Positions 6,743 to 32,806 of a DNA stretch of 64,000 nucleotides are shown here, in pieces; the stretch's first letter is position 1, and every line of letters begins with the position of its first letter. The stretch comes from Methylotenera sp. (lineage in GTDB: Bacteria; Pseudomonadota; Gammaproteobacteria; Burkholderiales; Methylophilaceae). The stretch lies in assembly GCA_030652995.1 (NCBI GenBank), contig JAUSAG010000033.1, forward strand, positions 1 through 64,000, written 5' to 3'. Both the position numbers and the translations under genes were made by a program. Below the pieces are notes generated by a model. That model had not been told where the DNA came from. It made no database searches and saw nothing but the letters and a program-made list of their open reading frames with translations.

Positions 6743-8191
6743 TTAATTCAACGGGATTCCATCTAACACACCGGCTAAAAAGTGAATACTTTCATCCCAA
6801 TCTGCACGTTGCGACACATCTTGCTGTAAAAACTGCTCAATAATTTCATGTCTGGCAATCGCTAAATCCAGTAAGGCATCACTACCCGCTTCGTAAGCAC
6901 CAACGTTGATTAAATCGATACTCCGCATGTAACGCGAATTAAGCTGCTTTAACTTCTGCGCCAACTTTTGGTGCGCGGGACTAGTAATGTTATGCATGGC
7001 ACGGCTAATTGACTGCTCAATATCAATCGCAGGATAATGGCCGCTTTCAGCCAAGCTACGGCTTAAAACAATATGGCCATCTAAAATTGCACGTGCGGCA
7101 TCAGCAATAGGGTCTTGCTGATCATCACCCTCTGTCAATACTGTATAAAAAGCGGTGATTGAGCCCTCGCCTCGCAAACCATTGCCTGTACGCTCTACCA
7201 ATGCCGGCAATTTAGCAAATACAGATGGCGGATAACCTTTAGTTGCTGGCGGCTCGCCAATCGCCAGTGCTATTTCACGTTGCGCCATGGCGTAACGTGT
7301 CAGTGAATCCATAATCAACAACACATTTTTACCTTGATCACGAAAATTCTCAGCAATGGTTGTTGCATAATTAGCGCCTTGCAGACGCATTAAGGCAGAA
7401 GCATCGGCAGGGGCGGCCACCACCACAGAGCGTGCCAGCCCTTCAGGGCCTAAAATCTGCTCGATAAACTCTTGTACTTCACGTCCACGCTCACCGATCA
7501 AACCCACCACAATCACGTCAGCCGTGGTATAGCGTGCCATCATGCCTAACAGCACACTTTTACCCACGCCTGAGCCCGCAAACAAACCCATCCGCTGGCC
7601 ACGGCCAACGGTTAACATGCTGTTGATAGCACGCACACCTACATCTAATACATCTTCAATAGGTGCGCGCATTAGAGGGTTCATCGGTCGCGAGGTTAAT
7701 GCCGCACTTTGTGTTGCTCGAACAGGTCCGAGGCTATCTAATGGATTACCTGCGCCGTCCAATACGCGACCTAGCAGCTCATTACCAACGGGTAAATGGC
7801 GCGCTCTATCAGTCACGCGTCTGCGTGGCGGTTGCCCATGATGAGGCTTGGGTAAGCTTTCCGCCACTTCCAAAGCAAATACTTTGGCACCAGGCACTAC
7901 GCCATCGACGCTACTTTGCGGCATCAACAACATACGCTCGCCATCAAAACCAACCACTTCAGCTTCAAGCCGGTGCCCTTCGCTCAACGGCACAAAACAA
8001 GCACTTCCAATCGGCAATTTAATCCCGACCGCCTCCATCACCAACCCGGTTAACTTAACAATGCGTCCAGCAACTTCTAAAGGCTCAACGATACGTAAAA
8101 TTTCTTTACAGTCACGAATATGGTCATGCCAGCGTTGCTGATGAACGTTAGGCTGTTGCTCACCTGAAGTTTTCAGCAGTTGCTGATTCAC
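6743..8191 (-). CDS. fliI: flagellum-specific ATPase FliI
   Basis: FliI is the hexameric ATPase that energises flagellar protein export, working with FliH and FliJ at the cytoplasmic face of the gate. The 482-residue protein has the F1-beta-like fold with Walker A GSGVGKS at 206-212, Walker B LLIMDS at 291-296 and the family [12 protein letters not shown] segment at 233-244. The start is a GTG whose last bases form the fliH stop (GTGA, 4-bp overlap), indicating coupled translation. Confidence 0.97.
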
Positions 8192-8859
8192 GCCAACAAC
8201 CAGTCATTATTTTGCGCCAATGCCTCGGTAATTCTCTTCCAGCGCATTTCATTGGTAGCATCCACCTGGTTAGCCCCCGTTTCAACCTGGCAACCACCAC
8301 GCTCGATATTACTATCTTCGTGTATTTGCCAATGGTCATTGGCAATTTCATCAGCCATATATTCGCGTAACAACTGCATATCATCACGATGCACTAAAAT
8401 TCTGGCGGGCTTTTGAATATGCGGTAAATAATGAATGGCATCCAACACAACAGGCAACAAAGTCTGCGTATCAACACTTAACTTAACTTTCAGCATTGCC
8501 TTTGCAATATCTAAAGCTAACGATAAAACGTCATCTGCAATCTGCTCATCGGACTGCTCCAAAGCATGGCTAAACGCATTCATTAATGTTAAAAAGCTTT
8601 GTTGATCTTCTTGTCCGCGCTCTCTTGCATTTGCCATACCCACAGCAAACCCTTCCTGCATGCCTTTACTATAAGCCTCTTTACGTGCGCTTTCAAAAAT
8701 TTTGGCTATTTGTTCCGTCTCAACAGCAGGGCCTTTTTTCTGAGGTGAACTTGCGTTGCCACGTGCGCCGGTCAGGCTTTGATTAGCATCTGCAAATGAA
8801 GCCATCTCCCAGCGTTCATAGGCAGTTTGCTGCTCCTTAGGCACCTTCACGTTAGACAT
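8188..8859 (-). CDS. fliH: flagellar assembly protein FliH
   Basis: FliH is the regulator and peripheral stalk of FliI and tethers the ATPase to FliN in the C-ring. The product of about 223 residues from ATG 8859 has an aromatic N-terminal patch ([10 protein letters not shown]), a charged helical region and the C-terminal FliH/V-ATPase-E-like domain (about 110-215). A TTG three codons upstream also keeps the frame open, but AAGG lies 9 nt before the ATG. It overlaps fliI by 4 bp. Confidence 0.93.
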
Positions 8860-8870
8860 TCTGAGCAACC

Positions 8871-9869
8871 TTATACATATTGATCATCGCCACCCTTACC
8901 TGCCAGCTGAATTTGACCTTCATCCGCAAGCCTACGTACTATCTGCAGAATTTGTTTCTGCTGCGCTTCAACTTCAGATAATTTAACTGGGCCTTTGGAT
9001 TCCAAATCTTCTCGCATCATCTCTGACGCGCGTGACGACATGTTTTTAAATATTTTTTCACGCATTTCTTCCGTCGTGCCTTTTAGCGCAATAATCAGTG
9101 TTTCAGATTGCACCTCACGCAACATGACTTGAATACCTTTATCGTCTATATCCATGATGTTATCGAAGACAAACATCTCATCCATAATTTTTTGCGCCAT
9201 ATCGTCATCGTAATTCTTCAAGCCCTCCATAATAACGGCTTCGTTGTCACCGCTCATAAAGTTCATGATTTCGGCAGCCACTTTAATACCGCCCATGTTT
9301 TGCTTTTTGATATTCTCATTACCAGTCAGCAATTTAGTCATCACATCATTCAACTCACGTAAAGCCACCGGCTTAACCCCATCAAGCGTAGCAATACGCA
9401 ACATAACATCTTGGCGCATTCTTTCAGGAAAATGCCCGATAATTTCTGACGCTTGATCCGGCTCTAAATGCACTAAAATTGTTGCAATAATCTGTGGGTG
9501 CTCATTTTTAATAAACTCAGCTACCGTGTGCGCATCCATCCACTTTAAGCTTTCAATACCGCTGGCATCACGCGTTTGCAAAATACGGTTAAGTAAACTA
9601 GAGGCTTTGTCTTCACCCAACGCTTTATTTAACACAGAGCGAATATATTCATCAGAATCCAAGCCAAGATTACTACTTAACCCAGCCTCTGTCAGAAAAT
9701 CCGTGACCGCAGTTTCTACTTGCTCACGCCCAACTGATTTCATGGTGGCCATGGCGGCCCCCAATTTTTGCACTTCTTTCGGACTCAAAAACTTCATCAC
9801 CTCTGCGGCTTCATCTTCGCCAAGCGCCAGCATCAATACGGCACTGCGCATTACCCCTGCATCACTCAT
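8871..9869 (-). CDS. fliG: flagellar motor switch protein FliG
   Basis: FliG joins the MS-ring to the C-ring and carries the torque-generating residues that meet the MotA stator. The 332-residue protein shows FliG N, middle and C domains in order. The conserved EHPQ motif (EHPQIIATILVHLEPDQA) lies in the middle domain, and the charged C-terminal helix region contains MREDLESKGPVKLSEVEAQQ. Its ATG at 9869 is 2 bp from the fliF stop. Confidence 0.97.
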   Translation of the reverse strand: MSDAGVMRSAVLMLALGEDEAAEVMKFLSPKEVQKLGAAMATMKSVGREQVETAVTDFLTEAGLSSNLGLDSDEYIRSVLNKALGEDKASSLLNRILQTRDASGIESLKWMDAHTVAEFIKNEHPQIIATILVHLEPDQASEIIGHFPERMRQDVMLRIATLDGVKPVALRELNDVMTKLLTGNENIKKQNMGGIKVAAEIMNFMSGDNEAVIMEGLKNYDDDMAQKIMDEMFVFDNIMDIDDKGIQVMLREVQSETLIIALKGTTEEMREKIFKNMSSRASEMMREDLESKGPVKLSEVEAQQKQILQIVRRLADEGQIQLAGKGGDDQYV

Positions 9870-9871
9870 AT

Positions 9872-11509
9872 TTACGACTCATTTCCGTTGGTCCAATTTG
9901 CCACAACACTAGCAACCATTCTGGGGTTATCTTTTGCTAATTGTTTGGCTGCCTCTAAATTTTGATCATACGCGGCCTTAACAATAGGCATTCCTTGTTC
10001 ACCACTTAAACTCACTACCGTATCTACCGCCTCAAGTTGCGGCACAGATGGCTTTGAAAGTGTCGTAAGTTTACCCATTAACGGCTTCAATACGCGTGAA
10101 TAAAGCAACATCAACACCACAATACCCACAATAAAACGTAGCGCATCCTTGCCATACTCAATCACGCGTTGATTCTCCCACAAAGGTACAGCAGGCAATA
10201 CTTCTCTAGGTTCACCAGCAAAGGGCGTATTCACAACCGTGAGCGAGTCACCGCGCTCTTTATTAAAACCCATCGCCTGCATTGCAAGGTCATTGATTTG
10301 TGTTTTTTCAGCGGCTGTCAGTGGACGATAAGTCACTTTACCCGCCTTATCCACCACTTGCATGTTATTCACCACCACCGCCACATTCAATCGCTTAATG
10401 CCACCCATTGGCTGCTGCGTATAACTTACGGTTTTATCTACCTCATAATTGGTAGTGAGGTTTTTTTCACTGTTAACAGGCGTGGTATTCACAGCACCAA
10501 TGTCGCCAGAGTTAGCAGGGGCATTGATCGGCGCCGTAGCATTGGCCTGCGGCTGATTAGACAACGCACCAGGTACCCCGGCTACATCACCATTGCTGGT
10601 TTGTGATTCATTGGTTTGCATGCTACGTATGGCCGCGGCATCTGGTTGCTGATTTGGCTTGTAGATTTCTGCCGCTTGCTCCTGAGTAGAAAAATCAACT
10701 TCTACACTCGCTTCTGCACGCACATTTTTAAGCCCAACGATAGGCGTAATGATCGATTCAATCCGTTTTGCAATACTTTGCTGAATATCTTCAACGTACT
10801 TAAGCTGTGCCGGGTCCAGATTTTTGTTACCCATTTTTTTAGAAGTATCTGAAAGCAAATTGCCATTTTGGTCCACTACCGTTACATTCGCGGTCGGCAA
10901 ATTAGGCACACTACTCGCCACCAAATGCACAACGGCACTCACCTGCTGTGCATCCAAGCTGCGTCCTGAGCGTAAATTAAGCAACACTGAGGCTGTTGGT
11001 TTTTGTTGATCCCGCGCGAAAACTGAAGGCTTAGGGATAGCCAAATGAATTCTCGCGCCTTCTACCACACCAATAGACTGAATACTCCGTTCTAGCTCAC
11101 CTTCTAGTCCACGCTGAAAATTCACTTGCTCTACAAATTGCGACACACCGAATTTTTGATTCTCTAACAACTCAAAACCAATGTTACCGCCCTTAGGCAA
11201 ACCATCTGATGCAAGTTTTAATCGCGCCTGATGCACCTGCGAAGCGGGGACTAAAATCGCTGAACCACCGTCAGAAAATTTATACGGCACATTCATTTTT
11301 TCTAGCGCAGCTACAATCGCGCCACCATCCCTATCAGAATAGTTAGAAAATAAAACGCGATAATCAGGTTGCTGACTCCAAAGCCAAAATACCACCATGA
11401 CCGCCACCACTGCTGCAATCCCTGCAACCAACAGCAGCTTACTTCCCATTTGAGAAAATGCGCCTGTTGCACCACCACTAGCCAAGGCGGCGTCTGTTGC
11501 TGCTGCCAT
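9872..11509 (-). CDS. fliF: flagellar MS-ring protein FliF
   Basis: FliF forms the inner-membrane MS-ring on which the motor and export gate assemble. The 545-residue protein has an N-terminal membrane helix (about 24-44), periplasmic ring-building motifs (about 50-440) and a second membrane helix (about 455-476). The C-terminal cytoplasmic tail, ending VVANWTNGNES, carries the FliG-binding region. It is the first gene of the minus-strand operon. The divergent fliE shares the 226-bp spacer. Confidence 0.97.
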   Translation of the reverse strand: MAAATDAALASGGATGAFSQMGSKLLLVAGIAAVVAVMVVFWLWSQQPDYRVLFSNYSDRDGGAIVAALEKMNVPYKFSDGGSAILVPASQVHQARLKLASDGLPKGGNIGFELLENQKFGVSQFVEQVNFQRGLEGELERSIQSIGVVEGARIHLAIPKPSVFARDQQKPTASVLLNLRSGRSLDAQQVSAVVHLVASSVPNLPTANVTVVDQNGNLLSDTSKKMGNKNLDPAQLKYVEDIQQSIAKRIESIITPIVGLKNVRAEASVEVDFSTQEQAAEIYKPNQQPDAAAIRSMQTNESQTSNGDVAGVPGALSNQPQANATAPINAPANSGDIGAVNTTPVNSEKNLTTNYEVDKTVSYTQQPMGGIKRLNVAVVVNNMQVVDKAGKVTYRPLTAAEKTQINDLAMQAMGFNKERGDSLTVVNTPFAGEPREVLPAVPLWENQRVIEYGKDALRFIVGIVVLMLLYSRVLKPLMGKLTTLSKPSVPQLEAVDTVVSLSGEQGMPIVKAAYDQNLEAAKQLAKDNPRMVASVVANWTNGNES

Positions 11510-11735
11510 TATATTTCTCCAATTTTTTATGCATAAAATACTTTAACCAAACGCTTGCCACCTAAAAAATAATTGCTTTGGTGACTTATTGAATAGCATT
11601 ATGCCAATGTCTAACAATATCAAACTTAGGAATAGAGCAATTTTCATTGGTTTATTTACAGACTGACTCTTTACGCAAAGTGTTAAATTAGTCATAAGAA
11701 AAATTTTAGGTTAAATTGAACTACGGAGACCAACC
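11510..11735. promoter_or_regulatory. divergent fliF / fliE promoter region
   Basis: This 226-bp spacer separates the fliF operon (minus) from fliE (plus) and must hold promoters for both. I see no perfect sigma-28 element. A minus-strand TGGCAAGCGTTTGGT at 11546-11560 resembles a sigma-54 site but has GT instead of GC at -12, so it is not called. Confidence 0.5.
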
Positions 11736-12098
11736 ATGAAAGCAGGTGGAATTGATTCAAGCAGAATAGAATCTATGCTTGCACAGATGAAACTGGCAGC
11801 CCAGCGCCCTCAAACTGAGGCGCTAGGCGGTCTCGCATCATCAATCGGCGTACAAAAATTACAAACTACCGGCAAAGTTGACTTTGCCGACGCGTTAAAA
11901 GCATCACTAAACAAAGTAAACGAAGTGCAACAAGCGTCGTTAAAACTAGGTAAAAACTTTGCCATGGGCGACGACAGCGTTAGCTTGTCCGATGTCATGA
12001 TTGCAGGCCAAAAAGCCAGTATCGCTTTTCAAACCACCATACAAGTGCGAAACAAATTGGTTTCAGCGTACCAAGACATTATGAATATGCAGGTTTAA
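11736..12098 (+). CDS. fliE: flagellar hook-basal body protein FliE
   Basis: FliE is the adaptor between the MS-ring/export gate and the proximal rod. The 120-residue protein has the conserved helical C-terminal half: FADALKASLNKVNEVQQASL, then the SVSLSDVMIAGQKASIAFQ stretch, then QVRNKLVSAYQDIMNMQV, the invariant FliE ending. It is transcribed alone and divergently from fliF, an arrangement seen in many enterobacteria and betaproteobacteria. Confidence 0.96.
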   Translation: MKAGGIDSSRIESMLAQMKLAAQRPQTEALGGLASSIGVQKLQTTGKVDFADALKASLNKVNEVQQASLKLGKNFAMGDDSVSLSDVMIAGQKASIAFQTTIQVRNKLVSAYQDIMNMQV

Positions 12099-12118
12099 CC
12101 CACTTGCTTCAGGCCGTT

Positions 12119-12143
12119 TTCCCTGAGTTTGTCGAAGGGTGAC
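12119..12143. repeat. REP-like half-site (CCTGAG..TTGTCGAAGGG)
   Basis: This stretch contains CCCTGAGTTTGTCGAAGGGT, the half-site that also forms the perfect-looking palindrome between psd and rppH. It is a common short interspersed palindromic motif in proteobacteria. Here only one arm is obvious. Confidence 0.45.
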
Positions 12144-12306
12144 AGGTCAAAGAGTGACAGAAAGGACGCTGACAAATAGGTAATCCTATAAAAAGCAGTT
12201 GGTCCACGAAAAACACAAAATACACGAAAAAATTTAATTGATTACACAGATTTACGATGACACCCAATAGGTTAAATTGAAAATTGAATGATGCATCTGA
12301 TTTTAG

Positions 12307-12328
12307 GCAGCATCATGCTGCTCTTTTT
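12307..12328 (+). terminator. possible fliE terminator
   Basis: A short stem, GCAGCA-TCA-TGCTGC, is followed by TCTTTTTG. The stem is only six pairs, so this is a modest candidate for ending fliE transcription about 210 bp past its stop. Confidence 0.35.
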
Positions 12329-12371
12329 GCACTTCAACCTTGAAACCGCCCTGTTTTTAGGATAACCCGGG

Positions 12372-12734
12372 TTAAATAATCACATCCTCTTCGTCGGCTT
12401 TATTTTCTTCTAACCGATATAACCACGCTAAAATTTCAGCAATAGCCTGATACAGCGCAGGCGGTATGTGGTCATCTATATCCACCTGCATCAGTAGCGC
12501 TACCAAGTCTTTAGATTCGTGCACAAAAATACCATGTTGCTTGGCTCTGGCAATAATTTGCTCGGCAATTAAGCCGCGTCCTTTTGCAACGACCTTAGGC
12601 GCATAATCCCCTGACGCGTAGCTTAAGGCAATCGCATGTTGGTTAGGGTTTGGGCTATTACTCACAGTTAACTGCGGGTTGGGCGCAAGCCCAAGCGTCA
12701 CGTTTTTCCCAGCAAGTATGTCAGGGTTACTCAT
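12372..12734 (-). CDS. stand-alone FlhB C-terminal-domain protein (FlhX/YlqH-like)
   Basis: The 120-residue protein matches only the cytoplasmic C-terminal domain of FlhB, the export specificity switch. It shows HAIALSYASGDYAPKVVAKG, AEQIIARAKQHGIFVHE and a C-terminal IPPALYQAIAEILAWLYRLE. The self-cleaving NPTH motif of FlhB is replaced by NPNQH, so autoproteolysis is unlikely. The four membrane helices of FlhB are absent. It overlaps by 8 bp the FliK-like gene, the same pairing as ylqG-ylqH in Bacillus. A role in tuning export is plausible but unproven. Confidence 0.85.
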   Translation of the reverse strand: MSNPDILAGKNVTLGLAPNPQLTVSNSPNPNQHAIALSYASGDYAPKVVAKGRGLIAEQIIARAKQHGIFVHESKDLVALLMQVDIDDHIPPALYQAIAEILAWLYRLEENKADEEDVII

Positions 12735-17648: not shown

Positions 17649-18446
17649 TTAGCCTCTTAACAGTGCTAACACACCATTAGGAAGTGAGTTTGCTTGCGCT
17701 AACATCGCAGTACCTGCTTGTTGCAAGATCTGACCACGTGTTAAGTTAGCTGTTTCTGCCGCAAAGTCAGCATCCATGATGCGTGACTTGGCTGCTGATT
17801 GGTTCTCTACAGACACTTGCAAGTTACTTACGACTGACTCAAAACGGTTTTGAATCGCACCCAGTGTAGCGCGGTTAGTATTAGCCGTGCTTAATGCAGT
17901 GTCAAGTGCTGCCACCGCTGTTGAAGCACCCGCTACAGTTGAAATACTGCCTGTGATTGTAGCAGCTGCTACTGCAGCTGTACTAATCGTATCGCCTGCA
18001 TCAGCCCCCACTTGGAATGTTTGTGCTGCACCAAACGCACCTGCACCGTTGAATTTAGTTGCAGTTGCCAAACGCAAGACCTCCGCTGACAGTTGTGTAA
18101 ACTCAGCCTCAAGGTTTGTACGGTCTGTACTTGTATTAGTACCGTTAAGTGACTGCACAGCCAATTCACGCATACGTTGTAATGCGTCTGTTTGTTTAGA
18201 CAAGCCACCCTCAGCAACCTGTGCGAAAGAGATAGCGTCGTTAGCGTTTCGAATCGCAACTTGTTGACCACGTACTTGTGAGTCCATACGTGTAGCAATT
18301 GCCAAGCCAGCAGCATCATCTTTAGAGCTGTTGATACGTAAGCCTGATGACAAACGTTGCAATGATGTATTTAATGCACTTTGTGATGATGATAAGTTAC
18401 GTTGTGTGTTTAGTGACGCAATGTTTGTATTGATAACTGAAGCCAT
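17649..18446 (-). CDS. fliC: flagellin FliC
   Basis: This is the filament subunit, exported through the flagellar type III system. At 265 residues it is a short flagellin with essentially only D0/D1: the N-terminus [18 protein letters not shown], then [15 protein letters not shown] (the TLR5-recognition type segment), a small Ala/Thr/Ser-rich centre (about 140-185), and the C-terminus [18 protein letters not shown]. The surface-exposed D2/D3 domains are missing, leaving the Ser/Thr-rich middle as the natural site for O-glycosylation. It is driven by its own sigma-28 promoter. Confidence 0.97.
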
Positions 18447-23099: not shown

Positions 23100-24206
23100 T
23101 TACAGACTATTACCCTCCGCTGTTAATACCGACACCACATAATCAACATCACCCGCATTTAAATGTGGACCTATCGGTAAACTCAAGACTTCTTTTGCTA
23201 AGCGCTCTGCAACTGGCAGAGTTCCAGCTTTAAGCGCTAGCGCCTGATATGCCTTTTGCAAATGTGGGGGTACTGGATAATGAATCAATGTCTGTATGCC
23301 AGCGGATGCCAAACGTGACTGTAATGCATCACGCTCAGGTGTAGCAACCACATATAAATGCCAGACTGGTTCTGCCCACGTTGGTACATTTGGCAAACCC
23401 AACCCTAAACCGCTCAATGCCTGACTATAAATTGTTGCAATATGCTTACGACGTTTATTCCAACCATCAAGATACTTAAGCTTCACTGAGAGTGCTACCG
23501 CTTGAATTGGGTCTAAGCGGCTATTAACGCCGCGCTCTTCATTGAAGTATTTAACAGTCGACCCATAATTACCTAATTCACGCACCCTAGAGGCGATTGC
23601 CTCATTATTGGTCGTAATTGCTCCACCGTCACCCAATGCACCGAGGTTCTTACCTGGGTAGAAGCTCCATGCGACCACATCACCATGGCTGCCAATTTTT
23701 TTGCCTCCAACCATCGCACCATGTGCTTGTGCTGCATCTTCAATCACAGTCAAGCCATGTTTTTTTGCTAAAGTACAAATTGCCTCAATGTCTACAGGCA
23801 TGCCGTATAAATGTACGGGCATAATCGCTTTAGTCTTAGATGTAATGCAACGCTCAATACTAGCAACGTCAATGTTATAACTACCTGATACAGGCTCTAC
23901 TGGAACAGGCTTTGCACCAACTGCACTGACCGCAAGCCAAGTAGCAATAAAGGTATGTGAAGGTACAATGACCTCATCCCCTGCACCGATGTCTAAAGCA
24001 CGCAATGCAAGCGTTAATGCGTCTAGCCCATTACCAACACCTACACAACACTTAGCTTCTGTATAAGCAGCAAAATCCGCTTCAAAACTTTCTACTTCTG
24101 GGCCACCTATGTACCACCCAGAATGACTAGCCCTAAGGACAGCTTCATCTAACTCACGGCTTAATTCACTGTAAGCAGCTTTAAGGTCTAAAAATGGTAC
24201 GCGCAT
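23100..24206 (-). CDS. DegT/DnrJ/EryC1/StrS sugar aminotransferase (FdtB/QdtB-like)
   Basis: This is a PLP-dependent aminotransferase of nucleotide-sugar biosynthesis. About 368 residues from the ATG at 24206; a TTG three codons upstream also keeps the frame open, but the ATG gives the usual MRVPFLDLKAAY start. Signatures are GVGNGLDALTLALRAL, EDAAQAHGA (PLP-aspartate) and SFYPGKNLGALGDGGAI with the Schiff-base lysine. It directly follows a FdtA-like ketoisomerase, so the expected reaction is transamination of a dTDP-3-keto-6-deoxyhexose to the 3-amino sugar (Fuc3N or Qui3N). Confidence 0.9.
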   Translation of the reverse strand: MRVPFLDLKAAYSELSRELDEAVLRASHSGWYIGGPEVESFEADFAAYTEAKCCVGVGNGLDALTLALRALDIGAGDEVIVPSHTFIATWLAVSAVGAKPVPVEPVSGSYNIDVASIERCITSKTKAIMPVHLYGMPVDIEAICTLAKKHGLTVIEDAAQAHGAMVGGKKIGSHGDVVAWSFYPGKNLGALGDGGAITTNNEAIASRVRELGNYGSTVKYFNEERGVNSRLDPIQAVALSVKLKYLDGWNKRRKHIATIYSQALSGLGLGLPNVPTWAEPVWHLYVVATPERDALQSRLASAGIQTLIHYPVPPHLQKAYQALALKAGTLPVAERLAKEVLSLPIGPHLNAGDVDYVVSVLTAEGNSL

Positions 24207-24215
24207 ATCACTCAA

Positions 24216-24626
24216 TTACTTTACCCATCTGGCTTTCATAAAATCATCATAATTTCGGTAATAGTCATCTTCACTATATTTATTAGAAGCTAACACCATC
24301 AACACCGAGCCTGAAGAAAAGTTATCCATCTCGCGCCAGATCATTGGGCATACATACAAGCCGTAGTAGGACCGTGCCAAATGAAAGGTTTTCTTATCTT
24401 TACCATCATCCAAGGTAATATCAAAGCTGCCAGACATTGCAATAATCAACTGATGTAAACCTTTATGCGCATGCCCCCCACGATCAGAGCCGCCCGGTAC
24501 ATCATATACGTAGTACACACGCTCTATTGCAAATGGGATATGGTTATTGCTTTCCACAAACGACAAATTTCCGCGAGGCTCGTGGATTTTGGGGAGTTCA
24601 ATGATTCTGCAGTCTTCTAAAGCCAT
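24216..24626 (-). CDS. dTDP-4-dehydro-6-deoxyglucose 3,4-ketoisomerase (FdtA/QdtA-like, WxcM cupin)
   Basis: The 136-residue single-domain cupin has the FdtA/WxcM signatures HEPRGNLSFVESNNHIPFAI, RVYYVYDVPGGSDRGGHAHK and a C-terminal LASNKYSEDDYYRNYDDF. It converts dTDP-4-keto-6-deoxyglucose to the 3-keto isomer in the cytoplasm. It is 9 bp upstream of the matching aminotransferase. The galacto or gluco outcome (Fuc3N or Qui3N) is decided by residues I cannot resolve by eye. Confidence 0.9.
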   Translation of the reverse strand: MALEDCRIIELPKIHEPRGNLSFVESNNHIPFAIERVYYVYDVPGGSDRGGHAHKGLHQLIIAMSGSFDITLDDGKDKKTFHLARSYYGLYVCPMIWREMDNFSSGSVLMVLASNKYSEDDYYRNYDDFMKARWVK

Positions 24627-24649
24627 TAGTATTAATTTTCCACTATTAA

Positions 24650-25393
24650 TTATTTAAGTCTACAATTTGCTGCAATAACTGCTGCGCGGGCTAGCTCAGA
24701 GTTAGAATCAATAAACTTCATTTTATTTCTAACACTTGAATTAATAAATGGTGTTAATTCTGTACATCCGATAACGATTGAGTCAACCCCACTTTGCTCC
24801 AAGTGATCAACTAACGTATTAAAATCAGCCAAACACTCTTCATTTGGCACTGCATTCTGTTTAATATTTTCGATAAAGCTAGCAATCATTTTAGCTTGAT
24901 GATCAGCCATTGCGTAATAAGTAAATCCTCTTTGAGTAATTCTACTTTCGTATAACTTACTCTTCCTTAAATTTAAAGACTCAAATACAGCGACTACCTC
25001 CCCTCCTAAGTAAGAAAGTCTATCGCAACAGGCATCGATAATATTAGGAATAATCACTGGGGACTCTGATGCCCATCTATCAAATAGAATGTGTGCAGTA
25101 TTACAAGGGACTACAACAACACCTGCGCCAGAATTAAACAACTCCAGAATAGTTGCTTTTATGTAAGGTGAGGGATCTCTCTCGTGAAGTTCAAAGTATC
25201 GCCCTCGACTCGGAATTTTAGCATTTGCATCAATAATTACTCTGGGGTAATGCCAATCTTTATTAGCAGAAATATACGAATATAATGCCTTACAGAATTC
25301 TAAAGTTGCCCATGGAGCAACGCCAACGACACCTATAACAAGCTCGCTCTCATCCCAACTTACTGATTCAGAGTAAGGAGTAACTTTAGGCAT
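24650..25393 (-). CDS. aspartate/glutamate racemase-family protein
   Basis: The 247-residue protein has the two-domain PLP-independent amino-acid racemase pattern with both catalytic cysteines: VVVPCNTAH (Cys97) and IVIGCTEL (Cys210). Such enzymes invert Asp, Glu or related carboxylates. Here it is co-encoded with nucleotidyltransferases, a ParB/SerK-fold protein and methyltransferases, which suggests it prepares an amino-acid-like building block for the surface glycan. It overlaps the upstream methyltransferase gene by 8 bp. The substrate is unknown. Confidence 0.82.
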   Translation of the reverse strand: MPKVTPYSESVSWDESELVIGVVGVAPWATLEFCKALYSYISANKDWHYPRVIIDANAKIPSRGRYFELHERDPSPYIKATILELFNSGAGVVVVPCNTAHILFDRWASESPVIIPNIIDACCDRLSYLGGEVVAVFESLNLRKSKLYESRITQRGFTYYAMADHQAKMIASFIENIKQNAVPNEECLADFNTLVDHLEQSGVDSIVIGCTELTPFINSSVRNKMKFIDSNSELARAAVIAANCRLK

Positions 25394-26093
25394 TAGTTTT
25401 ATTTCTAATTAAAAACAAATGTAACCTTGTCTCTTTATATTTATTTAAGATATGGCCTTCTTCAAACATGTTTTCATCCTTAACTAACTCCAACCCATTT
25501 ATCAATAGTGGTTTCAAATATTGATCACGTGTTCTATAAGTAGCCGAATAGTCAGATTGCAAATGTTCTGAAAATTTATTATTAATTTCATGCCTATCAG
25601 CGATAGCCATTCCTTCCCTCATTAAAAGTAAACCACCAGGATTAATAAGCTTTGGGAATTTTCTAACCAATGTTAAAAACTGGTCATCGTTCAAATACAC
25701 ACAAAGCCCAGAACAAAGTACTATGTCAAACTTTTCATCTGTATCAAACTCCTCAGCTGGAGATACTATAAATTGCAAATTTTGCACACCACGCTTATTT
25801 GCCTCTACTTCTCCAACATTAGCCAACTCTTCAGAAAACTCTATTGCCTTAACTGACTTTGCACCTTTTTCTATAAAACGAAAAGCCCATTGACCAACGC
25901 CTGCCCCTAGATCTAAAATCTTTTTACCACGAACATCACCAAGCCATGAAAACACCTTTTCTGACTCGTGATTTATTTTTAGGTGAAGATTTTTTTCATT
26001 TTGCTCTAGATTTGCAATACTCTCAAACGCCAGACTTTCATAAGTCTTTGCCCGAGCATCCCAAAATTGTTTTACCTTGTTTCTATCTAACAT
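25386..26093 (-). CDS. class I SAM-dependent methyltransferase
   Basis: The 235-residue protein has SAM motif I ILDLGAGVGQWAFRFIEKGA (about 56-75) and the acidic KAIEFSEELANVGE motif, then DIVLCSGLCVYLNDDQF. It is a Methyltransf_25-like fold with no membrane segment. It overlaps the racemase-like gene by 8 bp and follows the DUF711 gene by 13 bp. A plausible role is N- or O-methylation of the small molecule made by this group (inference). Confidence 0.8.
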   Translation of the reverse strand: MLDRNKVKQFWDARAKTYESLAFESIANLEQNEKNLHLKINHESEKVFSWLGDVRGKKILDLGAGVGQWAFRFIEKGAKSVKAIEFSEELANVGEVEANKRGVQNLQFIVSPAEEFDTDEKFDIVLCSGLCVYLNDDQFLTLVRKFPKLINPGGLLLMREGMAIADRHEINNKFSEHLQSDYSATYRTRDQYLKPLLINGLELVKDENMFEEGHILNKYKETRLHLFLIRNKTNA

Positions 26094-26106
26094 AGTCGAT
26101 CTCGTT

Positions 26107-27339
26107 TTAATTTAGATATACCCAATGATTAAAATTTACTGTATTAATTGCTTTGTCGATAACACCTGTATTCATTACTCTACTATCACACAAAAAGTCT
26201 AAATTAAAAGTTGCATACTCATTAATTATTTTATTGGGTATTGGCACAACACGCACACCCAGAGGCTTTTTTAATCTGACAGCAAGTGCCGAAATATCCA
26301 GAATAATCGAAGTTATGCTCTCTTCATATACAGACCCGGCGATTGGCACCATATCTATTCCACAACCACAAAGTGTTGAAAACAAAGCTAGCTTTTCGAT
26401 AGAAAGACTAGTTAGATTATTAGACGAGGCAAGCGTATTATCTTCTAAAACAGAATACATGACACCATTAAAGCCTGAGCAGCGTGCTTTAGACTCTAAT
26501 AGAGCAGCTTTTAGTGCATCCGTCAGAATACTAGTGGCAAACAACGTACCACTTGCCCCAACAGGGGATACGCCAAGCTTTTCGATCAAACTACCTACCG
26601 AGCTTTTTCCATCAGGGAAAGGAGCATATGATGCATCTAATCCACGATACTCAACTAATGAAATCTGCTCTAACGCAACACCAAACTGATTAGCTTGTTC
26701 TATATTTTTTAAAAGTGCATCTTTAATAGCAATTTGCATTTCATCAATTGCTGGATTAATAACACTTAAACGCTCAACTGCATCAATACAATCTAACGTA
26801 GTCTCAAGCGCGAGACTAAAACAAAGACGTTCACCATCGTGTCTTGAAAATGGGAAAAATGGTGTATTTGCCACACAAGCACTTGAAACACCGACTCGGA
26901 AATTATCAAAACCGTTAAAACTTCTGCGCGATAAGTTAATAATAAACTTTGCAGCAATCTGTGCCCCTCGGAGTGATATCTTTGATTCATCTGCCACAAT
27001 TAGATTAACGAATAACTTTTGGTCTTTAATGATGTAAGAAAGCAACTCATTTAAAATCGGCTCATAATCTATTTCATGCATCAAATTAATCGGCAAACAA
27101 TACCAACGAGAACCAGCTTTGCTAGCAATCTCTTGAACTAAGGACATAGTAGAAACTAGGGCACTAGGTTGCAACATCATATCAACAGGCATTGGGGGTA
27201 AAGTCAGCCTTGTTGTCCTAGCACTCATATTGCTCTGGGACATCAGCTTCTTAGACAGTTTCTCCAAATTAATAACATCTTCGGAGAGTTCTGTGGCCGA
27301 GCTAGTCCATATTGGAAGGCCAATTGTGATCGCACGCAT
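26107..27339 (-). CDS. DUF711 (UPF0210/COG2848-like) protein
   Basis: The 410-residue protein resembles the DUF711 family of unknown function. It starts MRAITIGLPIWTSS, shows paired Gly-rich and acidic motifs, and has the block SLIEKLGVSPVGASGTLFAT followed by FNGVMYSVLEDNTLA, matching the family's conserved GxxGT and SEDxG-like region. It overlaps the preceding nucleotidyltransferase stop by 1 bp (TAATG). Family members are normally about 450 residues and stand beside an ACT-domain protein; here it lies inside a glycan island instead. No reaction can be assigned. Confidence 0.65.
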   Translation of the reverse strand: MRAITIGLPIWTSSATELSEDVINLEKLSKKLMSQSNMSARTTRLTLPPMPVDMMLQPSALVSTMSLVQEIASKAGSRWYCLPINLMHEIDYEPILNELLSYIIKDQKLFVNLIVADESKISLRGAQIAAKFIINLSRRSFNGFDNFRVGVSSACVANTPFFPFSRHDGERLCFSLALETTLDCIDAVERLSVINPAIDEMQIAIKDALLKNIEQANQFGVALEQISLVEYRGLDASYAPFPDGKSSVGSLIEKLGVSPVGASGTLFATSILTDALKAALLESKARCSGFNGVMYSVLEDNTLASSNNLTSLSIEKLALFSTLCGCGIDMVPIAGSVYEESITSIILDISALAVRLKKPLGVRVVPIPNKIINEYATFNLDFLCDSRVMNTGVIDKAINTVNFNHWVYLN

Positions 27340-28013
27340 TATTTTCTACCAGCTTCACGAATCAAATTAAGATAGTCAGTAGGCGTATTAATCTCCCACA
27401 AAAAGTCTTTTTCAACATCAACGGATTTAATATTCGTTACATTGACTGGTAGTAACTGACCTGCGAATAAATTGCCATGCTGAAGACATTGATTACGCCA
27501 AGCTGTTAAGGCTTCTTTATTTGATATTTTAAATAATCCAGTGGTTTCTGGATGTGTACTGTTTTTTATAGGACCTTGGTACACATCAATAATATTGTTA
27601 TCTTTTGTAATTGCATGTATTGACGACAAAACACGATTTTCAGTGTTTCTAGTCAGTGCCAAGTCACTCACCTCATTATCCAACCTAGATACTAATTTTT
27701 TATCTAAGTAAATATCTCCAGGAACTACGTAGGTCGGTTCATTTGTTAATGCCAAGCCTAAACTCATTGCATTATTTGTTACGGCCCAATTAGGATTAAT
27801 CACATAATTTAATTGTGGATATTTCTGCATTATTTGTATTGCACTAAACCCGACAACAACCGTGATCACTTTCCCTTCAAACGCATCAATCATGCAATCT
27901 AATATTGTTTTTCTAGATATCGGGTGTTCAATTAACGCTTTATTCACACCGTCTAACTGCAAGCTTTTACCTGCAGCTAATATAATTACCTGATTTACTT
28001 TTGTATGACTCAT
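27339..28013 (-). CDS. LicC-like nucleotidyltransferase with altered signature
   Basis: The 224-residue protein has the nucleotidyltransferase fold of LicC, PntC and RfbA relatives: IILAAGKSLQLDGVNKAL at the N-terminus, VITVVVGFSAIQI, and the LicC-like WAVTNNAMSLGLAL, then a PGDIYLD metal-site region. The usual GxGxR of the activating loop is degenerate (GKSLQL). It probably activates a phosphorylated small molecule with CTP or UTP, or has lost catalysis. It follows the ParB-like gene with no gap. Confidence 0.75.
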   Translation of the reverse strand: MSHTKVNQVIILAAGKSLQLDGVNKALIEHPISRKTILDCMIDAFEGKVITVVVGFSAIQIMQKYPQLNYVINPNWAVTNNAMSLGLALTNEPTYVVPGDIYLDKKLVSRLDNEVSDLALTRNTENRVLSSIHAITKDNNIIDVYQGPIKNSTHPETTGLFKISNKEALTAWRNQCLQHGNLFAGQLLPVNVTNIKSVDVEKDFLWEINTPTDYLNLIREAGRK

Positions 28014-28406
28014 TTACTTAAGTAACTCCAAAGGAATTTCACATTTTGGCAATTTTATCTCGAATTCATGTTTAACAGTTTTATAAGGATAAGGCATCCC
28101 CTCTAGCGAACGTCTTGTTACTTCTTTCCAATCAAACTCATATTTAGGCCTCAAGCTCCACAGCTTAACTTTCGAATAGTCATATTTAATTACTGGGACG
28201 TTGGTCAATCCTAAAAACTTAGCTGCTTCCATTCGGTGCTGGCCATCTAGGACCAAATGATGCTCTAAATCTACAGCCAACGGTTTTGTCCAAAAGCTTT
28301 CTTTAATAATTTTCTCAACAAGCCAATCAACACGCTTTTTACTAAAGCCCTCAATATGGATAAGGCTATTAGTCGGAATAAATATTATCTCTGACTGCAT
28401 AGTCAC
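28014..28406 (-). CDS. ParB/sulfiredoxin-fold protein, SbnI/SerK-like small-molecule kinase candidate
   Basis: The 130-residue protein carries a ParB-N fold with the motif LVLDGQHRMEAAKFLGL (DGQHR at 54-58) and the tail YPYKTVKHEFEIKLP ahead of IPLELLK. Stand-alone proteins of this type include the free-serine kinases SerK and SbnI, in which the DGxHR histidine region binds nucleotide and serine. There is no DNA-binding extension of a partition ParB and no parA nearby. A kinase role for an amino acid is an inference. Start is GTG 28406 or ATG 28400. Confidence 0.6.
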   Translation of the reverse strand: MTMQSEIIFIPTNSLIHIEGFSKKRVDWLVEKIIKESFWTKPLAVDLEHHLVLDGQHRMEAAKFLGLTNVPVIKYDYSKVKLWSLRPKYEFDWKEVTRRSLEGMPYPYKTVKHEFEIKLPKCEIPLELLK

Positions 28407-29158
28407 TACTTAATCTTTAGATTTAAAAATTGGGAACAAGCGTCATTAAAAGCATCTTCATCATTAAATGATTTAGCATAGTATTCGCTCACATCTAATA
28501 TTCTTGATGGGAGCTTTTCAAAACCAATCACCCATGGAGTAAGGTAATATTGCTTTATTGACTTTAAAATTAACGCTTTCCTTATTTGGATATCCTCTTC
28601 AACCTGATTGGGGCCGACAGATACTATACCAAGCATTTTAGGCCATTGTTCGTAAACAGGCATATATGAAGGTGCATAAGCAATTCCATCAATCATTCCA
28701 GTAACATTTGCATGAACAATACCACCAGTTAAACTTTTCGAGTACTTTCCGTGCGTAATCCAAAAGCTATCCTCACTTTGATTTATGTTTTGATATATTT
28801 TTTGCCAGCATGCAGGCTCTAAAATAATATCTGTCTCAATAATATTGTATCCATTTGAAACGTTATTAAGCTTCGAGACACCTAAATTTACAGAATAGAT
28901 ATTTACATCATCTTGATAACGACAATTGTATACAATAGAAATATTGAGATGCTTATAACTATTCACCAAATCATTAATTTGCTCTGACTTATGCCCTGTC
29001 ACCACCACAATTTCTTGATCATTCAACTCTGAAATATTGTCGATTATCATTTTTAATAAAGGCACACCATTTACTTCTAACATTGATTTATGTGTTTTAT
29101 CTGTTAATGGTGACATCCTAGAACCACTTCCAGCAGCTAATAAAATATTTGGCTTCAT
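28406..29158 (-). CDS. LicC/PntC-like phospho-alcohol cytidylyltransferase
   Basis: The 250-residue protein has a canonical nucleotidyltransferase signature LLAAGSGSRMSPLTDKTHKS near its start and the LicC/PntC-type YQDDVNIYSVNLGVSKL, followed by the IIETDIIL metal site. Relatives activate phosphocholine, phosphoethanolamine-like alcohols or phosphonates with CTP. It begins the small-molecule group and overlaps the ParB-like gene by 1 bp. The presence of a CDP-glycerol-transferase-like domain in the neighbouring 1021-residue protein supports a CDP-linked product. Start is ATG 29158 (a GTG lies one codon upstream). Confidence 0.8.
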   Translation of the reverse strand: MKPNILLAAGSGSRMSPLTDKTHKSMLEVNGVPLLKMIIDNISELNDQEIVVVTGHKSEQINDLVNSYKHLNISIVYNCRYQDDVNIYSVNLGVSKLNNVSNGYNIIETDIILEPACWQKIYQNINQSEDSFWITHGKYSKSLTGGIVHANVTGMIDGIAYAPSYMPVYEQWPKMLGIVSVGPNQVEEDIQIRKALILKSIKQYYLTPWVIGFEKLPSRILDVSEYYAKSFNDEDAFNDACSQFLNLKIK

Positions 29159-29274
29159 CACTAATTAAATTCTCATCGCAAATTAAACTTTATTTGGTAA
29201 ATCTTTAGATCTACATCTGCTTCTCTCAACTCCATCCAAATCGCAGATAAACAAGTTACCTGCTAGGTAGGTGT

Positions 29275-32200
29275 TCACGCCATTTTCTTCATCAAGATTA
29301 GTCGATCAGTAGATTGATCAGTAACACTTTCATTAATGATATCTTGCAATTGCAAACAGAATCCTAATTGATGCATATATGAGTGGAATGCATCAATATT
29401 TCTTAAATTACGAACCCGTCCAGATGGATAAGACATGATTCTGTCTTGAATGAGTGAAAACTTGTCTATGACTAAAAAATACCCATTACTTTGAAGACTT
29501 AGCGTTGATTTACTAACCATTTTAGAGAAAACGTTATCGTCGAGTATACAACTAAAGAACTCATTGAAACTAATCAAGGTCAACTCAAGTTTAAGTGATA
29601 GATTTCGAAAATCTTTCACTTCAAAATCAATATTATTGACACTAGCTATATCAGCCTTTTTTTTTGCAAAATGGATAATTTTTTCTGAAATATCGCACGC
29701 ATAAACATGCTTGGCTTTATAAGCTAATGCTATTGTATAGGCACCTCTCCCACAACCAACATCAACGACCTCATCTAAAGTTTCTGGTAATAAATTTGAT
29801 CTTAATAGATTTTTAAAAACATCTATTTTAGCTTGATAATACTCATCTGACTCTGTCATCAGTGTGGGCGTATTTTTCCAGAAATAATCTACATGATTTT
29901 GCATAGAAACTGCACTATCATCATGAGTGCTCTCAGCAAGCTCAAGTTGCTGGAGCATTTCATTGGCAACATACGTAGCTATGCGTTGACCAGCCTTACC
30001 ATCTAAACCATATAAATACTGCTCTATTACTGAAATGCGCTCATCACGCATAGGATCCAGTCCTTTTGAAACCATCTCTATAAATTGCGAGATATCTTCT
30101 GATTTATCTGCTCTGTAATAATGATTAACCAAATCAGCATCATCATTTAAACCAAACCCATCTGGGTGATGCAAATACAAAATTGGTTTCTTAGTTGGTA
30201 AATACTCCAATAAAAATGAGCCAACATCCGTCATAATTGCTCTTGATGCTGAAAATGACTCTATATAATCGGCACTCTCATCTAGCCATAAATTGCCTTT
30301 TTCATCACATAACTTTCTAAATTCTGCTTCGTCATTTATGCTCCAAATATGCTGTTTAAGCATCTCTTTAAAAAATAATGGATGTGGTCTAATGATAAAA
30401 AAAACATCTTGCCTAGCAACCGTTTGTTGCATGATGACTTGGCTGTAAATTCTATAAGTTGACCAACTTGCTGGCAAACCCACTGAAAAATGAGGTGTCC
30501 ACAACACAACCGGCCGTCCTGCAATTTTAACTTTAAGTTGCTCATTGATTTTATAAGTATCAGTAATGACTTGTCCATCAAATTTGGGATGCCCCGTGAC
30601 AACAACATGTGAGTCACCTACATCACAGTATTTTGCGTACATCGCTTTATTACGTGAGGATCTTACAAAAATACGCCAAGCTAACTGTTGTACGTCTGCA
30701 TTGAACTGGTATTGATTATTCTCAAGCCCTCCACCCATTTCAATTCCATAAGGAACATACGCAACTTTTATACCTATAGTTGCCAACTGAGTACTATGAA
30801 GCGCTGGAAGACGAGTTGAATCATATGGGTTTTGCAAGAATGCTACATGAGGTTGAAACTCACGCAATACCAAATCAACATTTGTATCTGCATCAATGTT
30901 TTCGTTACGGCACAACATATCAAGTTGCGCCATATTGTCATCACTTGCAACCCCATGAATAAAGACTGATTTAATTACCTTAACCTCAACACCATCAATC
31001 GCCTTAAGTGATTGGAATACCGAACGCAATGATGACCAAATAGGTGCATACTGCAACACAAACAATATTCGCACTCTGTTTGATATAACTTTGCTATGGA
31101 TATTCTGATTATTTAAAGTCACTTCTGCCGTGCTAGCTACACCAAATAATTTAAGCGCCTCTGCTAACGCGTCGTAATCAATTTCAAAATCGGCATGGTT
31201 AATATCATTCCAGTTGCCAGTATCAACGACCTTCCCCAATACATAAGCAAGCTGATGCCCAATGGCAAAAGCAATATTACTAAAGTACCAATAATTGACA
31301 ACCTTAGCGTCATTCATCAATACAATAACTTTTGCACCTTCTGGCGCCCAAATCATATTTAATAAAGCAGCGCCTGATGCTGCCACAATACATTTTGCTT
31401 TACTAAAAAATCTAATTTGTTCGGAAAAGCTTAACGTACTAGGATCAATACTTACAAAACCCTCTGACTCTAACTTTTTCTGTATTACCTTCTCGTTCAC
31501 GACGGAACGTGCGTGATATCGCCTGCCAGTAAATCTTTTTATAAAAATTTTACTTGGCGCGCCTTCACAACCACTCTGCGCCAATAACTCAAGAAAATAG
31601 TTTCTAGTTGCTTTCAAAGCATCAGGGTGGAAAACAGCGTGCTGAGGAGCTGCCATTTTATCTAATGCATTTGGTCCAGTAGCATTAGGTCGTTGATATA
31701 CAACATTAGCGACGGGGCTAACCCACATAGCTTCTGGAAAGGAGTTAAGAGATAAACTTTCAATTTTAATGAGCTGCTCATCCCCGACCCCAAGCAGATA
31801 AATTGCTTCCAACATACTAGGATAAGCCCTAGCATCTATCGCTATTTTATATCCAGAAAAATCAACACCACATTTTTTTAGCAATACCAATTGCGGTAAA
31901 AACTCCGTCATCCAATGCGCGTAGTTATATGATCCATTACCGATCAAGCCAATTACTTTACAATCATATGATAGTCGCGATTTCAAGCTGCCATAGCCAA
32001 TTATATTTTGGTCTGGTTTAATTAAACAAACCCCCTCAGCTTGCTCCCAAAGCTCCCAAACATCTGGAGAAAAGTATTGATGACAGATACTCTTATTTTG
32101 AATAATAGGAAAAGCTGCACCTCCTATAATTTTACAATCAGTTACTTTTGTAAGATAGACCGCAGGATGCTTTAAGATATAGCTATTTTTAACTGCTGCA

Positions 32201-32340
32201 TTAGCGGACAACTCGCCAAATATAGGAATTGGTGGGGTCGTGTATGACACTTCATCGAGAAGTTTAACACCCTCAAATTTAAGTACGGCATCATTCACTG
32301 TACCTAGTTCGAACACCTCTACATTTTTACCATCACTCAT
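29275..32340 (-). CDS. three-domain fusion: GT61 glycosyltransferase, CDP-glycerol-phosphotransferase-like, SAM methyltransferase
   Basis: The 1021-residue protein has three apparent modules. Residues about 130-400 resemble GT61 ([31 protein letters not shown]). Residues about 423-800 resemble TagB/TagF CDP-glycerol glycerophosphotransferases ([59 protein letters not shown]). Residues about 805-1021 are a methyltransferase ([19 protein letters not shown]). One chain could therefore add a sugar, attach a CDP-activated phospho-group to it, and methylate the product. It overlaps the acetyltransferase gene by 8 bp. Confidence 0.8.
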
Positions 32341-32806
32341 TATTCATTACTTTTTTTATTAGCTTAGCAGGGTTCCCAGCTACGACCACATGATCAGCAA
32401 CGTCTTTCGTCACCACTGAACCAGCGCCTACCATTGCACCAACACCAACTCTAATACCTGGCAATAGCACCGCCCCTCCTCCGATAGATGCCCCTTTGCA
32501 AACAATTGTCTTTTCTAATGTAAATGCGGTGTTTTTAGATTTTGGGTATCGATCATTAGTGAAGGTTACATTGGGTCCAATGAACGCATCATCTTCTATC
32601 GTGATGCCATCCCATAGATAGTTTCCGCATTTAATCGTGACATTATCACCAATGACTACATCGTTCTCAATGAAACAATGTGCATTAATGTTGCAGTGCT
32701 TACCTATCTTGGCATTAGCTAATATAACTGTGAATTGCCATACTTGTGACCCCTCTCCGATATGTTCAGATTGGCAGTCGGCAAGCGGATGAATATTATT
32801 CGACAT
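32333..32806 (-). CDS. left-handed beta-helix N-acetyltransferase (FdtC/QdtC-like)
   Basis: The 157-residue protein is made of hexapeptide repeats ([60 protein letters not shown]) and ends [14 protein letters not shown]. The FTND(R/L)YP block is typical of dTDP-3-amino-3,6-dideoxyhexose 3-N-acetyltransferases. With the FdtA- and FdtB-like genes it would complete dTDP-Fuc3NAc or dTDP-Qui3NAc. The glucose-1-phosphate thymidylyltransferase and dehydratase (RmlA, RmlB) are not in the window. Confidence 0.87.

Follow-up and report, generated by a model that had tools for sequence, protein, structure and literature searches.

The window analysed here, 64,000 nucleotides of a Methylotenera contig (assembly GCA_030652995.1, contig JAUSAG010000033.1, positions 1 to 64,000), carries within a flagellin island six abutting or overlapping open reading frames (ORFs) on the minus strand (24650-29161), next to a gene on the same strand for a 1021-residue protein (29275..32340). 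We propose, with a probability of about 0.65, that the six genes, together with the TagF-like and methyltransferase part of the 1021-residue protein, are one horizontally moved unit which makes and attaches a phosphodiester-linked, serine-derived decoration. Judged from sequence and gene context, this decoration is probably an N-methylated and epimerised phospho-amino acid derived from serine, activated with cytidine diphosphate (CDP) and placed onto a Fuc3NAc-type sugar of flagellin. An earlier sequence-only reading had proposed a phospho-amino-acid pathway for these genes; its coordinates are confirmed, and its calls of a racemase, a methyltransferase, a DUF711 protein, two nucleotidyltransferases (NTases) and a SerK/SbnI-like protein hold against Pfam and NCBIfam. 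The amino acid, which it had left open, is now pointed to as serine by conserved residues and by the genomic context of relatives.

Read along the minus strand, the cassette consists of NT28, a LicC/PntC-like cytidylyltransferase candidate (28406..29161; NTase, 1e-11); SERK, a 130-residue minimal SerK/SbnI-like free-serine-kinase candidate (28014..28406; NCBIfam and PDB profile matches, residues E19, D54, H57, K109 and H113); NT27, a LicC-fold NTase with an altered signature (27339..28013; a weak MobA-like NTase match, 3.4e-7); a DUF711 protein of a separate clade with a CGCG motif (26107..27339; Pfam, 1.5e-55); MT25, a class I methyltransferase (25386..26093; Pfam); and an Asp/Glu-type racemase independent of pyridoxal phosphate (PLP) (24650..25393; Asp_Glu_race, 9.7e-23). 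For the 1021-residue protein, the CDP-glycerol-phosphotransferase-like and methyltransferase domains named earlier stand, and a GT61 domain had been overlooked. The protein is laid out as a GT61 part (residues 1-~387; Pfam domain at 140-339, 3.7e-24), a TagF/TarL-like CDP-donor phosphotransferase (~411-815; Glyphos_transf, 2.1e-5; TarL by profile against the PDB, 2e-6) and a methyltransferase (~816-1021).

Conservation of the six-gene order

A scan of genome contigs with SERK returned seven loci, six of them strong. The order NT28-SERK-NT27-DUF711-MT25-racemase is identical in five loci, namely the window, Xanthomonas sp. XNM01 (L011), Pseudomonas mangrovi (L013), Roseovarius litoreus (L014) and a Desulfocapsa metagenome-assembled genome (L015), and NT27 was found in these five only. 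A chance gene cluster is ruled out by the retention of this order in four loci besides the window. Genes of the TagF and Fdt types travel close by: the cassette is followed by a TagF-like gene, FdtC, FdtB and FdtA in Xanthomonas and P. mangrovi, and in Roseovarius the TagF-like gene lies ahead of it, with FdtB and FdtA behind on the opposite strand. Xanthomonas sp. XNM01 also has a solitary cassette-type SERK elsewhere (L012, ~9986-10378), 56% identical to that of the window.

A smaller core recurs beyond these loci. In bacterium 1XD21-70 (L016), which is unclassified in taxonomy, NT28 and SERK form a single protein followed by DUF711, and the preceding gene is LicD (4.9e-44). A 335-kb contig of IMG/VR (L064) encodes an NT28-SERK fusion, DUF711 and a methyltransferase; a DUF711 profile run on the IMG/VR viral contigs recovered this same contig together with L079 and L080, both with NT28-SERK-DUF711-methyltransferase, the viral label being in each case that of IMG/VR. 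NT28 and DUF711 thus occur in six of the eight strong loci found with SERK as query (L011-L016, L064, L065), and NT28 and SERK in all three viral contigs found with the DUF711 profile, L064 among them; two weak SERK hits, L066 (viral) and L017 (no cassette match), stand outside these counts. The protein encoded directly upstream in L079 and L080 begins in the same way as the sulfatase-family (PF00884) protein of L064. In L065 (1079-3778), a 4.5-kb IMG/VR contig that is possibly chimeric, one open frame fuses NT28-SERK to a portal-like domain (PF23899).

SERK searches matched 7 of 274 genomes in the window's own class (its own and six partial hits), 3 of 187 in its family (its own and two partial hits), 3 of 291 in the class of the L016 genome (the known one and two partial hits), 2 of 198 in the family of the Xanthomonas genome (the known one and G1240, in which a small SERK adjoins SbnA/SbnB-type genes) and, in the family of the Roseovarius genome, only the known one among 248. 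The six genes, with the TagF-like/methyltransferase part of the 1021-residue protein, are a transferable unit.

Exchange at the flagellin locus

FdtA was found in 7 of 41 genomes of the genus, the window's own included, and the other six loci were compared. The island recurs in G383, G384 and G394 (flagellin 89-91%, FdtA 86-99% identical), with a different cassette between FdtA and GT61. DNA of the window matches G383 at 97% identity through 24626 and at 85% again from 31180, and the replaced segment between them (24627..31179) has no blastn match to G383; the G+C content is 0.36 across 24650-31110 vs 0.434 in the rest of the window. The G383 cassette was typed by hidden Markov models and those of G384 and G394 were matched to it ORF by ORF. 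It comprises an NTase, a relative of gamma-glutamyl-CDP-amidate hydrolase (9.9e-36, below the family cut-off), a phosphoenolpyruvate (PEP)-synthase-like protein of 798 residues (PRK05849, 1.7e-269), which we take to be the counterpart of Cj1418, and formyltransferase-like and APS-kinase-like proteins. The slot in these three genomes appears to hold a cassette of CDP-phosphoramidate type, which in G383 brings its own TagF-like domain. Phosphoramidate is known from the Campylobacter capsule. Two further genomes, G411 and G430, are without a donor cassette at the slot, and in G399 FdtA and FdtB sit in a different cluster.

The right border of the swap falls inside the gene for the 1021-residue protein, whose GT61 part is shared with the congener (72%); the G383 counterpart reads GT61-TPR-Glyphos_transf (PF04464, 1.6e-11). 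Since the TagF-like and methyltransferase domains moved with the six genes and GT61 stayed, donor synthesis and transferase change together. In G383 (L100, 9647-17842), as also in L101 and L103, the phosphoramidate-type cassette and the GT61-TPR-Glyphos_transf protein lie within the flagellin island.

A comparable replacement is seen in Pseudomonas. The P. mangrovi cassette lies after flgK (FlgK_D1, 2e-79) and a gene for a Flagellin_N protein, taken as flgL by its place and domain, and before fliC (Flagellin_N and Flagellin_C), with FlaG-, FliD- and FliS-like genes after the cassette by fliC. A TagF-like profile matched 3 of 149 Pseudomonas genomes. In one, G577 (L088), the island corresponds to that of P. 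mangrovi (flgL 76%, TagF-like 67%, FdtC 75%, FdtB 63%, FdtA 88% and fliC 79% identical), and a trio of methyltransferase, HAD protein and MobA/LicC-like NTase takes the place of the six genes; G577 gave no SERK hit in the search of the genus. The best solved relative of the HAD protein is phosphoserine phosphatase (1f5s/1j97). The methyltransferase of the trio shares 32% identity with MT25 of P. mangrovi, and its NTase 27% with NT27. Because MT25 and NT27 have these relatives, it is SERK, NT28, DUF711 and the racemase that replace the HAD protein. A further locus (L099 in G020, 8167-12599) carries TagF-like, methyltransferase, HAD and NTase genes with a racemase 33% identical to that of the window.

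The genes that flank the cassette in the window, all on the minus strand, suggest the acceptor sugar. They encode an FdtA/QdtA-like dTDP-4-keto-6-deoxyglucose ketoisomerase (24216..24626; Pfam), a DegT-family sugar aminotransferase (23100..24215; NCBIfam) and a hexapeptide acetyltransferase (32333..32806; Pfam, NCBIfam), the latter two being presumably FdtB and FdtC, names we assign by gene place. Given the functions of FdtA, FdtB and FdtC, these genes and an rmlB at another place in the genome (506 bits, cut-off 365) point to dTDP-3-acetamido-3,6-dideoxyhexose as the probable sugar. The flagellin gene itself (17649..18446, minus strand) encodes a protein 56% identical to P. mangrovi flagellin over the first 163 residues.

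A minimal serine kinase candidate

SERK has no Pfam match above a cut-off. Among NCBIfam models it is hit by SerK (5e-8) and SbnI (1e-4), far under their cut-offs, and by profile against the PDB its best match is SerK (3.4e-10), followed by SbnI and then ParB (4.5e-4). Of seven aligned family members, all match the SerK model, six SbnI and one parB_part (E ≤0.01). The identity of a partition ParB is disfavoured by this ranking, by the model counts and by the length of 130 residues. SERK reads as if it were SerK with the middle cut out: the Glu at the position of SerK E30 and the Asp and His of DGxHR are present, and the C-terminal PYPYKTVKH of the family aligns with the KTTRH of SerK, an alignment that is weak alone. 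E19 aligns with a residue that varies (Glu, Gln, Ala) among SerK entries.

With repeats and identical stretches removed, all 11 cassette-type SERKs and all 29 other small ones keep E19, D54 and H57. None of six control proteins has them; these are weak SERK hits, namely DNA methylases carrying a ParB-like domain (ParB_N passes its cut-off in one, DNA methylase in all six). SbnI is reported to require Glu20 and Asp58 (PMC9641203), and SerK to use serine and not threonine or homoserine (PMC5120207). DNA methylases (N6_N4_Mtase) with an N-terminal ParB-like stretch are the weak hits L002-L006 and L009 that SERK gave in the class and in the family.

The setting of the small relatives is often that of siderophore operons. 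Small SERKs were matched in 22 of 298 Pseudomonas genomes, P. mangrovi included; nine neighbourhoods among the 21 others were opened, and all nine contain a cysteine synthase of SbnA type together with a gene of SbnB or opine-dehydrogenase type. In plasmids, where 97 records match SERK, an SbnA-type cysteine synthase lies beside 7 of 11 that were opened, and the remaining four adjoin a TonB receptor, IucA/IucC genes or non-ribosomal peptide synthetase genes. Given the conserved residues and this SbnA-type context, free L-serine is the likely substrate of SERK. Small SERKs fill the SbnI slot of staphyloferrin-B-like operons in L068, L070, L073, L076 and L077 and in the Pseudomonas loci L040-L048, and those on plasmids are annotated 'ParB N-terminal domain-containing protein'. 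In an Agrobacterium vitis plasmid (L071, 732-9860), genes of PEP mutase, the phosphocholine cytidylyltransferase family and CDP-alcohol transferase stand directly before a small SERK, with ornithine cyclodeaminase, alanine racemase and cysteine synthase also alongside.

The accompanying enzymes

NT28 is closest by PDB profile to LicC (1.4e-18), then to the NTase/aminotransferase 6pd1 (5e-14), and the LicC/PntC signature is intact, with G11, R15, K25 and E109/D111 invariant in 6 of 6 members. It forms a clade (100/99) apart from NT27, the NTases of the trios and of the phosphoramidate cassettes, and a LicC-like protein, long branches being flagged in this tree. NT27 matches only LicC by profile (2.3e-5) and departs from the G..R...K signature, Arg being absent in 5 of 5 members and K25 and D100 kept; as it is without the signature Arg of the family, NT27 is not to be equated with NT28. 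A pseudogene was considered and rejected, the frame being open in 5 of 5 loci at 46-59% identity to the window's, and NT27 is kept as functional.

The racemase has two catalytic-type cysteines, C97 (PCNTA) and C210 (GCTE), invariant in 5 of 5 members. Its best NCBIfam model, matched by all five, is the cysteate racemase CuyB, at 141 bits against a curated cut-off of 190. Cysteate, we infer, resembles phosphoserine. Cysteate as the end product, as the CuyB-like racemase might hint, was rejected, there being no PLP-enzyme hit among the six genes, and so was a phosphonate pathway, the Pfam scan of window proteins having given no match to PEP mutase.

The DUF711 protein scores 189 bits with PF05167 (gathering score 25) and matches 2ha9 by PDB profile (1.2e-30). 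C324, D329, K358 and R363 are common to cassette and canonical members; CGCG is found in 9 of 9 of the former and CSVG in 4 of 4 of the latter, and the cassette proteins form a clade (100/100) apart from the four canonical ones, long branches again being flagged. This clade is seen here only beside NT28 and SERK. Canonical DUF711 genes lie behind an ACT-domain gene in two annotated records, and the ten window proteins scanned with Pfam gave no ACT-domain hit. DUF711 is reported to share the barrel fold of ribonucleotide reductase and pyruvate formate-lyase (RNR/PFL) (PMC4390871). Our literature search, by titles for the names UPF0210 and 'PFL family protein', returned no described function for DUF711 or either of these.

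A possible pathway and its alternatives

In the pathway we propose, SERK would phosphorylate free L-serine to O-phospho-L-serine, which NT28 would couple to cytidine monophosphate, giving a CDP-serine-type donor. MT25 would N-methylate the amino group, as is thought for the related PA1088 of PAO1. The racemase would invert the alpha carbon. Its nearest family works on cysteate, which is isosteric with phosphoserine, so the phosphorylated amino acid is the most plausible substrate for this step. DUF711 would make an obligatory conversion of the amino-acid part, and NT27 may provide a second, modified nucleotidyl transfer. Finally, the TagF-like domain would take the phospho-amino acid off CDP and place it on the 3-acetamido-3,6-dideoxyhexose that FdtA, FdtB and FdtC would supply on flagellin. 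Of the route first suggested, the kinase-like step, CDP activation, methylation and TagF-like transfer are supported by what we infer from context.

Several points weigh against this proposal. First of all, SERK reaches 32.4 bits with the SerK model, whose cut-off is 380, without the full-length two-domain layout, and is 130 residues long vs ~242-256 for SerK and SbnI chains. An archaeal SerK-like ParB-fold protein is reported to bind CTP, not ATP (PMC12704722). The 40 small SERKs are not independent, many coming from one genus, and since the controls are not partition ParBs, the residue contrast separates SERKs from that ParB-like branch only. Second, the unit is not uniform: BLAST found no TagF-like match in the Desulfocapsa locus and no match to NT27 or the racemase in L016 or the viral loci. 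Third, the likeness of the G577 trio, which holds the same slot, to PA1088-PA1090 is one of architecture, not of aligned PAO1 sequence. Finally, an unexplained DUF711 step could mean that the product is no longer a serine derivative.

As to the setting, placement in a flagellin island, as first read, holds for the window and for the flgK...fliC stretch of P. mangrovi, but some cassettes lie away from flagellar genes, which is a further point on the contrary side: BLAST with window ORFs of at least 100 residues (E ≤1e-8) found no flagellar match in the flanks of L011, L014, L015 and L016, those of Xanthomonas and Roseovarius reaching ~30 kb to either side. The occurrence of the module extends beyond flagellin loci.

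An unlikely alternative, though the strongest, is an amine product of the phosphoethanolamine or phosphocholine type, for which phosphoserine or CDP-serine would be decarboxylated, perhaps by DUF711, then N-methylated and moved by a TagF- or LicD-like enzyme. The closest solved structure to NT28 is indeed the CTP:phosphocholine cytidylyltransferase LicC, LicD adjoins the fusion in L016, a methyltransferase accompanies 8 of 9 core loci (L016 excepted), and Cj1436 provides a known case of phosphoserine decarboxylation (PMC11800397). Such a route would, however, leave a racemase of the alpha carbon without purpose, yet one is present in five cassettes and beside the HAD trio in L099. The RNR/PFL barrel of DUF711 also speaks against this alternative, as decarboxylases of this kind are not known to have that fold.

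Less likely still, SERK would be a nucleotide-binding regulator or a partner of NT28 rather than a kinase, the activated amino acid or alcohol coming from elsewhere. ParB-fold domains can bind CTP, ATP or GTP, the archaeal protein above being a case for CTP (PMC12704722), and the fusion of SERK to NT28 in L016, L064 and L065 would suit a partner; on the other hand, the presence of E19, D54 and H57 in all 40 small SERKs but in none of the six controls, and the way small relatives stand in for the phosphoserine-making SbnI in siderophore operons, favour a kinase. Least probable is that a phospho-amino-acid donor is made but goes mainly to another surface glycan of this strain, for which the Xanthomonas and Roseovarius flanks and the polysaccharide genes adjoining L016 speak, and against which stand the position of the unit in a flagellin island whose remaining genes are conserved with congeners and in the P. 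mangrovi flagellar stretch.

Comparison with known systems and significance

The serine-derived decoration proposed here has its nearest parallels in PAO1 b-type (PA1088-PA1091) and Clostridioides difficile type A (CD0240-CD0244) flagellin, with which the cassette shares a methyltransferase, a LicC-like NTase and a TagF-like phosphotransferase at a flagellin locus. In both, one sugar is reported to carry an N-methylated amino acid through a phosphodiester (PMC11833859, PMC10714395), the product of PA1088-PA1090 being phosphodiester-linked N,N-dimethylthreonine (PMC11833859); CD0241, modelled on 1j97, is a proposed phosphoserine:threonine phosphotransferase (PMC10714395). Unlike these, the window cassette has a SerK-like kinase, a second NTase, a racemase, DUF711 and FdtA/B/C-type sugar genes, and a HAD protein of the PSP/ThrH-like CD0241/PA1089 type, present in the G577 trio, gave no hit among the window proteins scanned with Pfam. 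The swaps at one slot with a PA1088-1090-like trio and with a CDP-phosphoramidate-type cassette support, by inference, the earlier suggestion of a distinct route.

In Campylobacter jejuni, Cj1415-Cj1418 are reported to make CDP-phosphoramidate 3'-phosphate, the donor deriving from glutamine (PMC11800397). That pathway likewise provides a CDP-activated phosphate group for sugars, but the window cassette lacks the kinase, hydrolase and APS-kinase-like enzymes that it uses; glutamine-kinase-like and gamma-glutamyl-CDP-amidate hydrolase genes gave no Pfam or NCBIfam hit among the window proteins and are present in the congener G383. SERK shares with SerK of Thermococcus and SbnI of staphyloferrin B synthesis a ParB-type fold domain, the aligned Glu, DGxHR and a C-terminal KTxxH, and differs from them in lying in a glycan locus, not in cysteine or diaminopropionate synthesis. 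Likeness to the LicC/LicD decoration with phosphocholine is seen in NT28, closest to LicC, and in the LicD gene adjoining the L016 fusion; choline kinase is part of that system, and the cassette has a serine-kinase-like protein in its place.

More broadly, and at somewhat less than even odds, NT28, a ParB-fold serine kinase of minimal size and a new branch of DUF711 may constitute a mobile pathway to an undescribed CDP-activated serine derivative, perhaps D-configured and N-methylated, in which DUF711 would be an RNR/PFL-fold enzyme without a glycyl radical, acting on a phospho- or CDP-amino acid, and whose core would be used by bacteria on flagellin or surface glycans and by large viruses on theirs. 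A literature search, with most subscription journals outside its coverage, turned up no publication on a CDP-serine pathway of this type.

For DUF711, an old family, the cassette provides a defined pathway and a few candidate substrates, which makes its activity directly testable, and many small proteins now annotated as ParB-domain proteins may be phosphoserine-making kinases. A precise swap at one slot offers a simple way to read the products of unknown glycan-decoration cassettes, and suggests that flagellin islands exchange phosphate-linked decorations as modules.

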